DNA from: Leucobacter salsicius M1-8
Lineage (GTDB): Bacteria > Actinomycetota > Actinomycetes > Actinomycetales > Microbacteriaceae
Direction of reading: 5' to 3'
Length of the DNA stretch: 64,000 bases
Assembly: GCF_000350525.1 (NCBI RefSeq)
Contig: NZ_AOCN01000019.1
Coordinates: 124,001 to 188,000, forward strand
Shown: piece after piece, positions 33,112-41,258 of the stretch
Position numbering within the stretch: position 1 is the first letter of the stretch
How the letters are laid out: each line of letters opens with the position of its first letter
Translations under genes and position numbers: made by a program
The notes under the pieces: generated by a model
Databases searched by the model: none
The model's input: only the letters and a program-made list of their open reading frames with translations
Told to the model about the DNA's origin: nothing

Positions 33112-33184
33112 GGCTCTGTAGCTCAGTTGGTAGAGCGTTCGACTGAAAATCGAAAGGTCACCGGATCGATGCCGGTCGGAGCCA
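33112..33184 (+). tRNA. tRNA-Phe (anticodon GAA), insertion site of the island
   Basis: The cloverleaf has acceptor GGCTCTG with CGGAGCC, an anticodon stem TTCGA/TCGAA around CTGAAAA (GAA), a T stem and discriminator A. CCA is not encoded. Partial copies of this locus occur at 33295, 39638 and 41512, marking it as an integration target. Confidence 0.95.
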
Positions 33185-33294: not shown

Positions 33295-33318
33295 CGTTCG
33301 ATGCAAAATCGAAAGGTC
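33295..33318 (+). repeat. Partial copy of the tRNA-Phe anticodon arm
   Basis: It matches 33136-33159 of tRNA-Phe at 21 of 24 positions, including 14 identical bases through the 3' half of the anticodon arm. It lies between the tRNA terminator and the integrase 3' end, where an attachment site is expected. Confidence 0.65.
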
Positions 33319-34440: not shown

Positions 34441-34980
34441 GTGTATAGCTGTCCGGAATCTACTTCCGAGTTGCCCCGAGTTACTCGCGAAACCGTGGTG
34501 CGTTGGATGGCTGGTTTTGCCGGAAAGGGAAAAATGGATCTCGCTGAATTAGTTCTCCACGGGAACAATAACGTTCGAGCGCACGACGAGGTTGCGGAGC
34601 TCGCTTCTTCGGCACGTTCCTTTCTCGAGTGCGTCGACGGATGGGACTCGTTCACGGTCGAAGCAGCCAGCCCTGCAGCTGAGCGGGTGCTTGGTGCCGC
34701 GATGATGTTAAACCCAGAACTCTGTGGAGGCCGGTCCCGCCGAACAGTCATTCTCGACGTTAACATCGCCAGCGGCACCTCAATTGCGAACGCTGCGCGA
34801 CGAATCCGGGAGCATATTGACGTCGAATGGCTTATTGCTGTGGCCATCAATTCTCTCACGGACATTGACATGCGATGGGGGGTCGAAGGCATCGATTCAT
34901 TGTTCGTATGCCGGCAGGTGTCAGAGCTTCGCGAGAGCAGCCAGAGCGCCTACGACAGCATCAGAGTTCGAGCCAGCTGA
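34441..34980 (+). CDS. Phosphoribosyltransferase-like protein
   Basis: A 179-residue protein from GTG 34441. The segment T-V-I-L-D-V-N-I-A-S-G-T-S-I (about residues 101-114) resembles the PRPP-binding loop of type I phosphoribosyltransferases, with only one of the two usual acidic residues kept. A preceding strand/helix (F-T-V-E-A-A-S-P-A-A-E-R-V-L) and a following one (E-W-L-I-A-V-A-I-N-S-L) fit the fold. A similar fold is found in nucleotide salvage enzymes and in stress-linked PRTase proteins. The start is uncertain; ATG 34534, after GGAAAGGGAAAA, is an alternative. The last 60 bases overlap the convergent gene at 34921. It belongs to the kinase cassette, and its activity is unproven. Confidence 0.5.
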   Translation: MYSCPESTSELPRVTRETVVRWMAGFAGKGKMDLAELVLHGNNNVRAHDEVAELASSARSFLECVDGWDSFTVEAASPAAERVLGAAMMLNPELCGGRSRRTVILDVNIASGTSIANAARRIREHIDVEWLIAVAINSLTDIDMRWGVEGIDSLFVCRQVSELRESSQSAYDSIRVRAS

Positions 34981-35379
34981 GGCAATCTGATCCCGTAGCT
35001 CTTCGAACCGAGTCTTTGTGATTCCGAACGACTTCGGGGCACCCGCAGGATCGACGGTAGCGACAGCGACGCCCAACGCTTCGCGAAGTACGTACAGTAT
35101 CGCTCCCTCACAGTGTGCTCTAGAGAAAGATGCTTTGTTGCGCCGGGCTACCGGTGGAGTGCCAGCGATGCGGATGCCGGACCCCTCGAGATCGAAAGAA
35201 GTGAGTCTGCTGTTTAAAGCGAGTGCTAGATCTACCGCTTGCTCAGCAGGCTCAACCGAGGTAGTTCGGAGCTCAAACTTATCCACGTAAGTTGGCTCCT
35301 CAAGTGTTCCGTCAAGTATGACGGCATGAATCCGGGGCTGCTTCCCGTTTGGGACGACGACTACTCCAATTACGCTCAT
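34921..35379 (-). CDS. Protein of unknown function, possible RNase H/RuvC-like fold
   Basis: A 152-residue protein. Strands (V-I-G-V-V-V-V near residue 3; H-A-V-I-L-D near 18), helices and a final S-D-A-V-V-G-A-L-A-A-L-A resemble the outline of RuvC/RNase H-fold proteins, but the expected first acidic residue is missing, so the assignment is weak. It starts 22 bp from the divergent kinase gene at 35402, and its 3' end overlaps the convergent PRTase-like gene by 60 bp. I recognise no family. The longer frame from 35439 would overlap the kinase gene, so ATG 35379 is preferred. Confidence 0.5.
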   Translation of the reverse strand: MSVIGVVVVPNGKQPRIHAVILDGTLEEPTYVDKFELRTTSVEPAEQAVDLALALNSRLTSFDLEGSGIRIAGTPPVARRNKASFSRAHCEGAILYVLREALGVAVATVDPAGAPKSFGITKTRFEELRDQIASAGSNSDAVVGALAALAKL

Positions 35380-35401
35380 AGATGACAGTATCCTTGCTTT
35401 G

Positions 35402-36445
35402 ATGAGCAGTTCAACTCTTCCCACGGGAACCACTGTCAATGACAGGTATGTCTTACAACGTAAGCTTGGCTCTGACGGAGACGTGTACGAGGCCCACGAC
35501 CGTCATCTCAACCAGACGGTTGCATTCAAGCTTCTCCACCAGGAGAACAGCTCCCCACAGTCGTGGGATGAGGCTCGCCGCCTAGAGCAGCTGAGAAACC
35601 GTTTCATCATTCCCGTCATCAACGCCGATGTCGTAGCCAACAGCGACCTTCGCTACATCGTAACTCGGTTGCTCCCTATCGGTGATCTCGAATCTGAAGC
35701 AGCACCAAACGGAATCTCCACGGCTCTCGCAGTTCGGTACGGGGCTCACCTCGCTACAGCCGTCGTTGCAGTACACGCAGCAGGCATGGTTCACCGCGAC
35801 ATCAAACCGGCAAATGCGCTCCTTGACGGGGATATTGCGCACTTGTCTGACTTTGAGTACTGCTGCATCCTCGACGAGAACGGGGAAGCGCCACGTGATG
35901 GCAGTTGGTGCACCCTTGCTCCTGAAGTGGCCATGGATGACGGCGTGTGCACTGTCGCCTCTGACGTGTACTCACTCTCTGCAACAGTCTTTTATCTGTT
36001 GTCAGGCGAGTACCCCGTCGACCCGCATCTTCCACGAGCAGAACAGAAACTACTCATCGCGGCCGGCGACGTGAGATCTCTTGCAGACATTGCCCCGCAT
36101 GTTCCTCGAGCCGTCTCGAGCGTTATCAAGCGTGGAATGGGTGTTGACCCTGCCGCTCGACATCCTTCTGCTGAAAGCTTTGCAAACGCGCTAGCTACGG
36201 CCATTGGCCGCCGACGCAGCTGGCACCGGATCACCCACTTGGGGCACACCTTTTGCGCAGAGAGTGTCGGGCAGAACAACCGAAAGTCGCTCGGCGTATG
36301 TGCTAGTTCAGTTCCTAATGGAAAAGTGAAGGTGCACGCATTTTACCTCGGCTCGAAACGAGCAGTGTCAGGGACGCCTGCCCGTGTTGTGCGTGCGGGA
36401 GAACTGGCTCCAGCACTTCGCAGTATGTTTGTAAAACTGAACTGA
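35402..36445 (+). CDS. Serine/threonine protein kinase with C-terminal extension
   Basis: A 347-residue soluble protein with no membrane segment. The kinase domain is about 18-270. It has a modified glycine loop L-G-S-D-G-D-V-Y, Lys43 in V-A-F-K, the catalytic H-R-D-I-K-P-A-N (131-138), D-F-E in place of D-F-G (150-152) and A-P-E (173-175). The Mg-binding Asp is kept but the Gly is Glu, so activity may be altered. The last 60 residues form a beta-rich domain of unknown type. Unlike PknA/B it has no PASTA domains. It is divergent from the 152-aa gene and lies in the island. The stop codon is inside an ACTGA tandem repeat. Confidence 0.85.
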   Translation: MSSSTLPTGTTVNDRYVLQRKLGSDGDVYEAHDRHLNQTVAFKLLHQENSSPQSWDEARRLEQLRNRFIIPVINADVVANSDLRYIVTRLLPIGDLESEAAPNGISTALAVRYGAHLATAVVAVHAAGMVHRDIKPANALLDGDIAHLSDFEYCCILDENGEAPRDGSWCTLAPEVAMDDGVCTVASDVYSLSATVFYLLSGEYPVDPHLPRAEQKLLIAAGDVRSLADIAPHVPRAVSSVIKRGMGVDPAARHPSAESFANALATAIGRRRSWHRITHLGHTFCAESVGQNNRKSLGVCASSVPNGKVKVHAFYLGSKRAVSGTPARVVRAGELAPALRSMFVKLN

Positions 36446-36465
36446 ACTGAACTGAACTGAACTGA
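36436..36465 (+). repeat. Six tandem copies of ACTGA across the kinase stop codon
   Basis: Six perfect 5-bp units span 36436-36465. The kinase stop (TGA 36443-36445) lies at the end of the second copy, so copy-number change downstream would not change the protein. Confidence 0.85.
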
Positions 36466-36832
36466 ATTGTAATTGTAAGGAAGGCCTGAGCTTGTGCGCG
36501 CAAGTTCGCCGACCGCACTGGTATACAAAGAAAGAACGGTACGTCCGGACCTGTGAAATCTCGGCCCCGATCTAGCCCAGAAAACAGGATGTCGAGCTGC
36601 AAGGTCTACGTTCCTCAGATCAGCGCACCACTGGCACTCAAATCCGCTCCCTACCAGACTTTGTATCTTCGCAACTACAGATTTACATACACAGAGCGTA
36701 AGAAGACTCAACACCAAGGCCTACCTTGGTGTTGATGTAATAACGGACTTCCGGGTTTGGGACGTAGGAAGACAACGTCAAGAACCATTCCTGATAGACA
36801 GTCGAGCCTCATGACTAACATGCTCATCCCGC
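36446..36832. other. Intergenic stretch between kinase gene and IS21
   Basis: This stretch holds the ACTGA repeat and about 370 bases without a convincing gene. The final 5 bases (36828-36832, CCCGC) are one copy of the IS target duplication. Confidence 0.6.
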
Positions 36833-39728: not shown

Positions 39729-40463
39729 CTAGAGGGGGATTCGCTCATTGCCTCTTGGGATATAGGTAAGTTGGATCCGAGGCTTTCTCTCCAATACGAA
39801 AAATGGGACTTGGGAAAGTACCAAGATGACAGCTGAAGATGCGCGCCTTGCGTAATTTTGATTGATCTCATCGCGAGTGATTGATCCCTCAGCGAGGAGG
39901 CGGGTGATCGCGAGCCGGAAGATTTCGATATCGATACTGCTCAAACGTCCTGTTGAGCTGACCCTCTTGAGTTCTGCCCAGTCGACTGCCACGATCTCAT
40001 TCTTGCGCCCGTCGGCAGCTGAAAGTGTCCTGCCTGCGAGAGGCAGGATGTATTGCATCCAGACACTCTCAAATGTCTCAGGTTCGGCATCAAGACCCGT
40101 TGTGGGGGCTACGCGCTCCGTTGATACAGCAGGTTGTAACGTATCTGCCGAGAGCTCTAGTAGCGTCACGCTGAGCTTCGCTGCGACCTCTCGCGCGTCT
40201 GAGCGCACAATCCCATCGGTAGCAAGTACGGCACGGTCGCAGTCAAAATAATCCTTCACTCCGTGCAGTTCCATGATCATTTGGCGGTTGACTTGCCGCG
40301 AAGTGTGACCATAGAGTTTCGCTTGTATCGCGACCCGCTCATGATCATTCTCCGCTATTGCATCGAGTCCATAATCATTAGTCAAGCTCGTGACCTGTGT
40401 GCGGTATCCCAATCGCTCGAAGTGTCGCGCAACAAGATGCTCATACGCTGTGGGGGTAATCAT
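39729..40463 (-). CDS. Mrr-like restriction endonuclease
   Basis: A 244-residue protein. The N-terminal domain (1-95) has the Mrr-type PD-(D/E)xK layout: Y-E-H-L-V-A-R-H-F-E-R-L-G-Y (about 7-20), then N-D-Y-G-L-D (catalytic Asp about 34), and V-A-I-Q-A-K (Gln47-x-Lys49). The remaining 150 residues are unrecognised and may bind DNA or a partner. Mrr-type enzymes cut methylated or foreign DNA. It is divergent from the small ORF and the GIY-YIG-like gene at 40531-41258, so the three may form a nuclease-type defence unit. Confidence 0.78.
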   Translation of the reverse strand: MITPTAYEHLVARHFERLGYRTQVTSLTNDYGLDAIAENDHERVAIQAKLYGHTSRQVNRQMIMELHGVKDYFDCDRAVLATDGIVRSDAREVAAKLSVTLLELSADTLQPAVSTERVAPTTGLDAEPETFESVWMQYILPLAGRTLSAADGRKNEIVAVDWAELKRVSSTGRLSSIDIEIFRLAITRLLAEGSITRDEINQNYARRASSAVILVLSQVPFFVLERKPRIQLTYIPRGNERIPL

Positions 40464-40530: not shown

Positions 40531-40758
40531 GTGGACGGAGCTGAGAGGTTGAACGGTCTTGCATCGAGGCAGGAAATAGTTGAGATCCGGTTAGCAAGTA
40601 TCGTGGCTCAGTCACCAAAGGCGGAAATTGACTGTGTTCTGTCAAAAATGCCACCCCACCGCATAATTTCGATGTCAATGACCGCCGCGGAAGAATTCAA
40701 TACTGCTGCCCTGGTGCTTCTTGTTATCGAGTACCTAGATGAAAGGTCCACAGCATGA
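40531..40758 (+). CDS. Small ORF coupled to the GIY-YIG-like gene
   Basis: A 75-residue frame from GTG 40531 with no clear ribosome site; later starts such as a TTG after GAGAGG are possible. It ends in the ATGA shared with the next gene, so coupled translation is likely. It contains a helix-like segment (S-M-T-A-A-E-E-F-N-T-A-A-L-V-L-L-V-I-E-Y-L) but no family is recognised. Confidence 0.5.
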   Translation: MDGAERLNGLASRQEIVEIRLASIVAQSPKAEIDCVLSKMPPHRIISMSMTAAEEFNTAALVLLVIEYLDERSTA

Positions 40759-41258
40759 TTCTTGATCAATTCGATGAGCAGGGGCTTTCTCAAGCAGGGT
40801 TCACGGGCTTCTTGACGATTGCCGAACTGAGTTCCGATCGTGCTCGGATCCCTGCTGTACGTGGCGTGTATGCGGTGCTGCGGACTGTTACGAGTGAGCC
40901 GGAGTTTACCCAAATTGGAAGTGGTGGGCATTTCAAAGGTAAAGACCCCAACGTGGAGATCGCCGACTTGCAACGAAACTGGGTGCCGGGGGCTCAAGTC
41001 GTATACATCGGAAAAGCGGGCGATCCTGGGAGAGCTGCGACACTACGCAGCCGTCTGTGGCAGTACTTGCGTTTTGGCGAGGGTGCAAATGTTGGCCATT
41101 GGGGAGGGAGGTATATCTGGCAACTTGCTGACCGCGATTCGTTGATCATAGCCTGGAACGAGATGCCTGACGGGGTGCCGAGTGAGCTGGAATCCGAACT
41201 CATTGGGAGGTTTCGGGGTCATTTCGGAGAGCGACCGTTCGCGAACCTCGCGAAGTAG
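40755..41258 (+). CDS. GIY-YIG-like nuclease-superfamily protein
   Basis: A 167-residue protein. G-V-Y-A-V (about 37-41) and V-V-Y-I-G-K-A (about 82-88) match the GIY-YIG motif, followed by L-R-S-R-L (97-101), G-H-W-G-G-R-Y-I-W (114-122) and a Glu-rich helix with E-L-E-S-E-L-I. A variant catalytic site is likely. GIY-YIG domains cut DNA or act as binding modules. It is coupled to the upstream 75-aa ORF and divergent from the Mrr-like gene. It is the last gene of the island. Confidence 0.6.
   Translation: MILDQFDEQGLSQAGFTGFLTIAELSSDRARIPAVRGVYAVLRTVTSEPEFTQIGSGGHFKGKDPNVEIADLQRNWVPGAQVVYIGKAGDPGRAATLRSRLWQYLRFGEGANVGHWGGRYIWQLADRDSLIIAWNEMPDGVPSELESELIGRFRGHFGERPFANLAK

Follow-up and report, generated by a model that had tools for sequence, protein, structure and literature searches.

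The question raised by this locus is whether a kinase gene and two small frames lying side by side in a genomic island of Leucobacter salsicius M1-8 form one undescribed unit, and what such a unit might do. The window (the whole 64,000-nucleotide stretch of DNA analysed, to which positions refer unless another locus is named) had been given a sequence-only reading, in which a soluble Ser/Thr kinase, a divergent 152-aa protein with its start codon 22 bp away and a possible RuvC/RNase H outline, and a PRTase-like protein overlapping the middle gene by 60 bp at its 3′ end were proposed to act together. All three frames were found to be real and to have this arrangement (Table 1). The start of the PRTase-like gene was revised. 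The GTG at 34441 had been proposed, but it would add ∼31 unlikely residues relative to the start position of the type A relatives described below. Because the relatives begin at M/V-D-L or an equivalent position, the ATG at 34534 is the most likely start.

Table 1. Coordinates of the three genes and of the elements within and between them
Feature	Position	Strand	Remarks
Kinase gene	35402-36445	+	ATG start; 347 aa; Pfam Pkinase, 1.1e-23
RuvC-like gene (middle protein)	34921-35379	-	152 aa; AlphaFold, Foldseek, alignments
PRTase-like gene	34534-34980	+	148 aa; AlphaFold, Foldseek, conserved start
Kinase/RuvC-like intergenic gap	35380-35401		22 bp, divergent; predicted leaderless bidirectional promoter
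RuvC-like/PRTase-like convergent 3′ overlap	34921-34980		exactly 60 bp; 54-60 bp in nine type A loci
Kinase C-terminal domain	36224-36442	+	H-x2-H-x2-C...C; alignments
Kinase -10, TATCCT	35389-35394	+	TANNNT motif
RuvC-like -10, TACTGT	35385-35390	-	TANNNT motif

Loci were gathered by searching with the middle protein and adding relatives stepwise; a single-protein query of the genome contigs gave no match, and an alignment query was needed to recover them. Eleven further actinobacterial loci were obtained, from Microbacterium suaedae (G165), the Rhodococcus plasmid pLW2, genome G663, Mycolicibacter arupensis (G868), a Microthrixaceae MAG, Rhodococcus tibetensis, Microbacterium ureisolvens, a Nocardioides MAG and, as more divergent relatives, G599, G1024 and G889. 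The Microthrixaceae locus belongs to another class and lies on a MAG contig, where a binning error is possible. The kinase, RuvC-like and PRTase-like families were found together at 12 of 12 loci, the window included, which far exceeds what chance would give. The proposed linkage was thus upheld, and the PRTase-like frame proved to be conserved. Among 385 Actinomycetes genomes, full-length PRTase-like matches were confined to the genomes with a RuvC-like gene and occurred in all five of these. Across eight type A loci, the pairwise identities of the kinase, RuvC-like and PRTase-like proteins were correlated (r = 0.84–0.93), indicating that the three were inherited together. The three genes form one unit. 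The cassette is rare (about 1% of the Actinomycetes sampled) and scattered over distant taxa, which fits the expectation for mobile cargo. In the plasmid search pLW2 was the sole plasmid with a relative, the variant middle proteins as queries giving none, and no relative of the cassette was found in viral contigs and phage records.

Several weaker signals were not counted. Partial matches of the PRTase profile in other genomes cover part of the profile and mostly lie inside longer frames; its CFA/I fimbrial matches are short and fall in a repetitive fusion; and the RuvC-like matches in G895, G259 and G1304 are weak and short.

The spacing of the first two genes was conserved, with 21–26 bp between the kinase and RuvC-like start codons at all 12 loci. 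Nine loci showed the layout of the window (type A), in which the kinase and RuvC-like genes diverge across about 22 bp and the PRTase-like gene converges on the latter with an overlap of 54–60 bp. In type B (G599 and G1024), the converging position is taken by an HTH gene, with the PRTase-like gene on its far side. In type C (G889), the PRTase-like gene converges, and a winged-HTH frame diverges from it. The PRTase-like proteins of G1024 and G889, the two most divergent, were recognised first from frame and alignment, and later matched a profile that both had helped to build. The HTH genes of the type B cassettes lie at L012:875-1501 and L007:1030-1473, and the HTH protein of G599 resembles the Rv2175c winged-HTH domain (E 4.6e-5). 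Rv2175c, the namesake of this domain, is a kinase substrate.

Inspection of the gap between the start codons suggested how the first two genes may be expressed. Two candidate –10 boxes stand back to back in the window, with the TA step at 35389–35390 in common. At 10 of 12 loci the TANNNT motif was observed on both strands of the gap, 5–7 nt upstream of each start codon, the opposed hexamers overlapping by one TA step (AGGNTANNNT at most loci). Base shuffles of the same gaps gave a mean of 0.24 such loci and none of 20 000 reached 10, a number that is not to be read as a probability because the loci are related. The –10 element of M. tuberculosis is TANNNT, with its centre 7–12 bp before the start, and the mRNAs of this species' toxin-antitoxin pairs are predominantly leaderless (PMC3898074). 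The gap is therefore predicted to be a leaderless bidirectional promoter for the kinase and RuvC-like genes. At bidirectional promoters, RNA polymerase bound for one direction prevents binding for the other, and a direction that is strongly activated can repress its counterpart (PMC12825309).

The kinase was confirmed as a soluble Hanks-type Ser/Thr kinase (PF00069). Alignment showed that the catalytic Lys and Glu, the Asp of HxD (the HRD Asp), the Asn and the Asp of DFx (the DFG Asp) are invariant in 11 of 11 kinases, from which the protein is predicted to be catalytically active. The H-x2-H-x2-C...C pattern of its tail was also invariant, suggesting a possible metal site. The tail domain occurred in one of 108 genomes, the window's own, and is specific to this cassette; no match to it was found among PDB sequences. 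A perfect 5-bp tandem repeat (AACTG, 6.4 copies, 36435–36466) runs across the kinase stop codon, and a change in its length would alter only the last residues of the kinase.

The AlphaFold model of the middle protein (pLDDT 89) has the topology beta-beta-beta-alpha-beta-alpha-beta-alpha-alpha-alpha. Its best Foldseek match in the PDB was a RuvC resolvase (7w8d, E 8.9e-8, TM 0.67), and the top 16 matches were all RuvC, MOC1 or phage RuvC, led by the RuvC proteins of D. radiodurans, P. aeruginosa, T. thermophilus and E. coli, with that of Lactococcus phage 67 lower. The sole Pfam signal was a Lactococcus phage family, DUF3882 (PF07066), at an E of 0.002, below the cut-off, which is consistent with the phage 67 RuvC being among the structural matches. 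The RuvC/RNase H outline seen earlier thus agrees with solved RuvC structures. The RuvC model PF02075 did not match, and hhalign against actinobacterial RuvC gave a very weak probability of 2.2. Since sequence profiles link the two only very weakly, the assignment rests on predicted structure, and the mapping of catalytic acids leans on structure and motif order. Three of the four RuvC acids (D, E, D, D) appeared to be missing. Aligned to actinobacterial RuvC, the first is replaced by V7, in line with its absence in the sequence-only reading, and the second by R70; D140, which is D or E in relatives, is the only one retained and matches one of the final acids. These results suggest that the middle protein is a pseudo-resolvase with a RuvC fold, in which branched-DNA binding may persist but cutting is not expected. 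The host has a normal RuvC of its own, on another contig.

The model of the PRTase-like protein was less certain (pLDDT 78, with a poor C terminus). Its top 50 Foldseek matches were all PRTase or PRPP-synthetase folds, with a TM of about 0.5 to the matches, and weak profile matches to PRPP synthetase and PyrR (E 0.1–0.4) fell at the PRPP loop. D-V-N-I-A-S-G-T occupies the place of this loop, and its ASGT part is retained in the type A proteins. The adjacent acidic pair of the loop is missing: the second acid is absent in all members, and the first is variable and lost in several. The third protein is therefore predicted to fold as a PRTase that lacks the acidic pair; it may bind a phosphoribosyl nucleotide, but catalysis is not expected. 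For the two small proteins no confident family was found, and no model claims them, in Pfam, PHROGs, NCBIfam or PADLOC.

The cassette was compared with known systems. The middle protein shares its fold with RuvC resolvases (PF02075, Lactococcus phage 67 RuvC, DUF3882), but three of the four catalytic acids are missing from it and the RuvC model does not recognise it. The kinase is, like the single-gene anti-phage kinases PD-T4-6 and Stk2, a soluble Hanks-type Ser/Thr kinase, and the PADLOC PD-T4-6 models matched it at 1.8e-35; MAD6, PglW and PknB-type models matched as well. Membership in PD-T4-6 was rejected, the match being to the kinase domain in general. PD-T4-6 stands alone as a single gene, whereas the cassette kinase is always accompanied by two dedicated partners and has a distinctive C-terminal domain; the known single-gene kinase defences manage without such partners. 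PglW (BREX type 2) and MAD6 (MADS), which gave weaker kinase-domain matches, are likewise Ser/Thr kinases of multi-gene units, but none of the other components of their systems is present in the cassette. The PRTase fold has a precedent in defence, since type III retrons pair a PRTase with winged-helix effector genes (PMC12548924) and a DprA-PRTase system protects against T7 and lambda (PMC9122126). The variant cassettes likewise place the PRTase-like gene beside an HTH or winged-helix gene. The cassette's protein differs from those of both systems by its absent acidic pair; no RT domain was found in the neighbouring ORFs scanned, Rfam gave only a tRNA, and a scan of the cassette genes and of the neighbours in the window revealed no DprA gene. 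Among the systems compared, no pairing of a PRTase fold with a pseudo-RuvC and a kinase was found, the unit was absent from every library searched, and a literature search returned no paper describing the set of three, in agreement with the earlier proposal that the unit is undescribed.

The surroundings of the cassette were mobile or defence-related. In the window it is part of a mosaic island whose G+C is lower (about 55–58% vs about 65%) and which runs from a tRNA-Phe with an integrase fragment, past an IS21, to an Mrr-like nuclease. A second copy of the tRNA-Phe end was sought at the far side of the island, and none was found within 2–3 mismatches. A near-copy (1 mismatch) of the tRNA-Phe anticodon arm 33145–33159 lies just outside the tRNA at 33304–33318 and is possibly an old attachment-site scar. 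The Mrr-like gene (39729–40463) adjoins a 167-aa protein (40755–41258) with no Pfam match, which by eye looks like a GIY-YIG nuclease (VVYIGKAGDPGRAATLRSRLWQYL). Integrases, a relaxase or a conjugative plasmid were found near the cassette at several loci; the host elements are of several kinds (a plasmid, an island, integrase elements) and share no other transfer gene alongside the cassette. Besides the Mrr of the window, nearby genes included type I restriction in M. suaedae and the Microthrixaceae MAG, the PADLOC candidate family PDC-M19B in M. ureisolvens, and in G663 a NACHT protein resembling PDC-M54A, a DUF2971/PDC-S31 protein and a TrwC relaxase. These neighbours are suggestive of a link to defence.

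On the Rhodococcus conjugative plasmid pLW2, an IS1380 interrupts the kinase only and both partner frames are open (n = 1), a pattern to be expected were the kinase the costly part. In this cassette (L003:5252-8864) the split kinase is annotated as two genes, and the PRTase-like gene (L003:8397-8864, minus strand) is missing from the annotation. Of the neighbours of the type B cassettes, the one next to the PRTase-like gene of G599 encodes a 540-aa protein that resembles adenylosuccinate synthetase and has a P-loop-like motif near its N terminus (L009:6353-7975), and another, about 0.9 kb away from the kinase of G1024, encodes a weak match to the phosphorylase superfamily (PNP_UDP; L017:11480-12496).

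Taken together, the neighbours and the interrupted kinase speak for a conflict module in which the kinase may be costly. The cassette is probably an undescribed switch or phage-defence module run by its kinase. More specifically, we give about even weight to a three-gene conflict or defence module borne by mobile elements, in which the kinase would be the effector and the two degenerate enzymes would serve as sensors or regulators. The kinase, as the sole intact catalytic site in the cassette, is the proposed effector; for the two partners, in which enzyme folds are kept and catalytic residues lost, the simplest reading is a role as ligand sensors or regulators. We infer that the proteins form a complex, that the partners sense, that the kinase is the effector and that the cassette serves defence. 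The RuvC-fold and PRTase-fold proteins would hold the kinase inactive, their ligands being branched DNA and a phosphoribosyl compound, respectively. Recombination intermediates or a nucleotide disturbance would signal invasion and release the kinase, which would phosphorylate a protein of the host or of the phage, or else its own partner, so that growth is arrested or the invader blocked. The kinase and RuvC-like mRNAs would be leaderless and arise from one bidirectional –10 element, by which their levels would be tied together. Several findings weigh against this reading: phage records and viral contigs yielded no relative, sequence profiles link the middle protein to RuvC only very weakly, the PRTase model has a TM of about 0.5 to its matches and a poor C terminus, and the known single-gene kinase defences need no partners of this sort. 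The fullest form of this reading, held only tentatively, is an undescribed immune or signalling system in which the kinase is gated by a dead resolvase responding to foreign recombination or replication intermediates and by a dead phosphoribosyltransferase responding to nucleotide state, with the stoichiometry set by the leaderless bidirectional promoter.

The same observations bear on other explanations. The compact pair under a shared leaderless promoter, typical of M. tuberculosis toxin-antitoxin pairs, could belong to an addiction module that stabilises mobile elements, in which the kinase would be a growth-arresting toxin and the RuvC-like and/or PRTase-like protein an antitoxin and autoregulator, with no dedicated phage sensing. 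The conjugative plasmid, integrases and relaxase, the HTH partners of types B and C, and the interruption of the kinase alone in pLW2 all agree with this. Such modules are mostly co-directional operons, however, for which three divergent and convergent genes are unusual, and neither partner resembles a known antitoxin; we regard this explanation as rather unlikely. The integrases, relaxase and plasmid would also suit a control module of the mobile element itself, with excision, replication or transfer under the control of the kinase and the RuvC-fold protein, and the Foldseek matches suggest that this fold could bind junctions arising from excision or replication. Against it, the host elements differ without conserving another transfer gene, and several copies adjoin restriction or NACHT genes, which makes it unlikely.

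It is also conceivable that the two small proteins are active DNA-processing or nucleotide-salvage enzymes merely regulated by the kinase. Their folds are enzyme folds, the RuvC-like protein retains one final acid and the type A PRTase-like proteins retain the ASGT loop, but the loss of three of four RuvC acids and of the PRTase acidic pair renders this very improbable. That the genes are chance neighbours without a functional unit might be imagined for a mosaic island with an IS21 and an integrase fragment. It is refuted by the linkage, that is, by the conserved spacing of the same three families at 12 loci, the restriction of the PRTase-like family to genomes with the RuvC-like gene and the co-inheritance of the proteins, and its probability is negligible.

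Neither the two small protein families nor the kinase tail domain is represented in the family libraries searched. As a bidirectional promoter that is conserved and apparently leaderless, the gap is a clean example from nature, and the cassette, at about 2 kb with this defined minimal promoter, is directly clonable and testable in laboratory strains of mycobacteria, corynebacteria or Rhodococcus. If the conflict or defence reading is true, its trigger mechanism, which was in no library or paper searched, would be one in which branched DNA is sensed by a pseudo-resolvase and relayed to a protein kinase.
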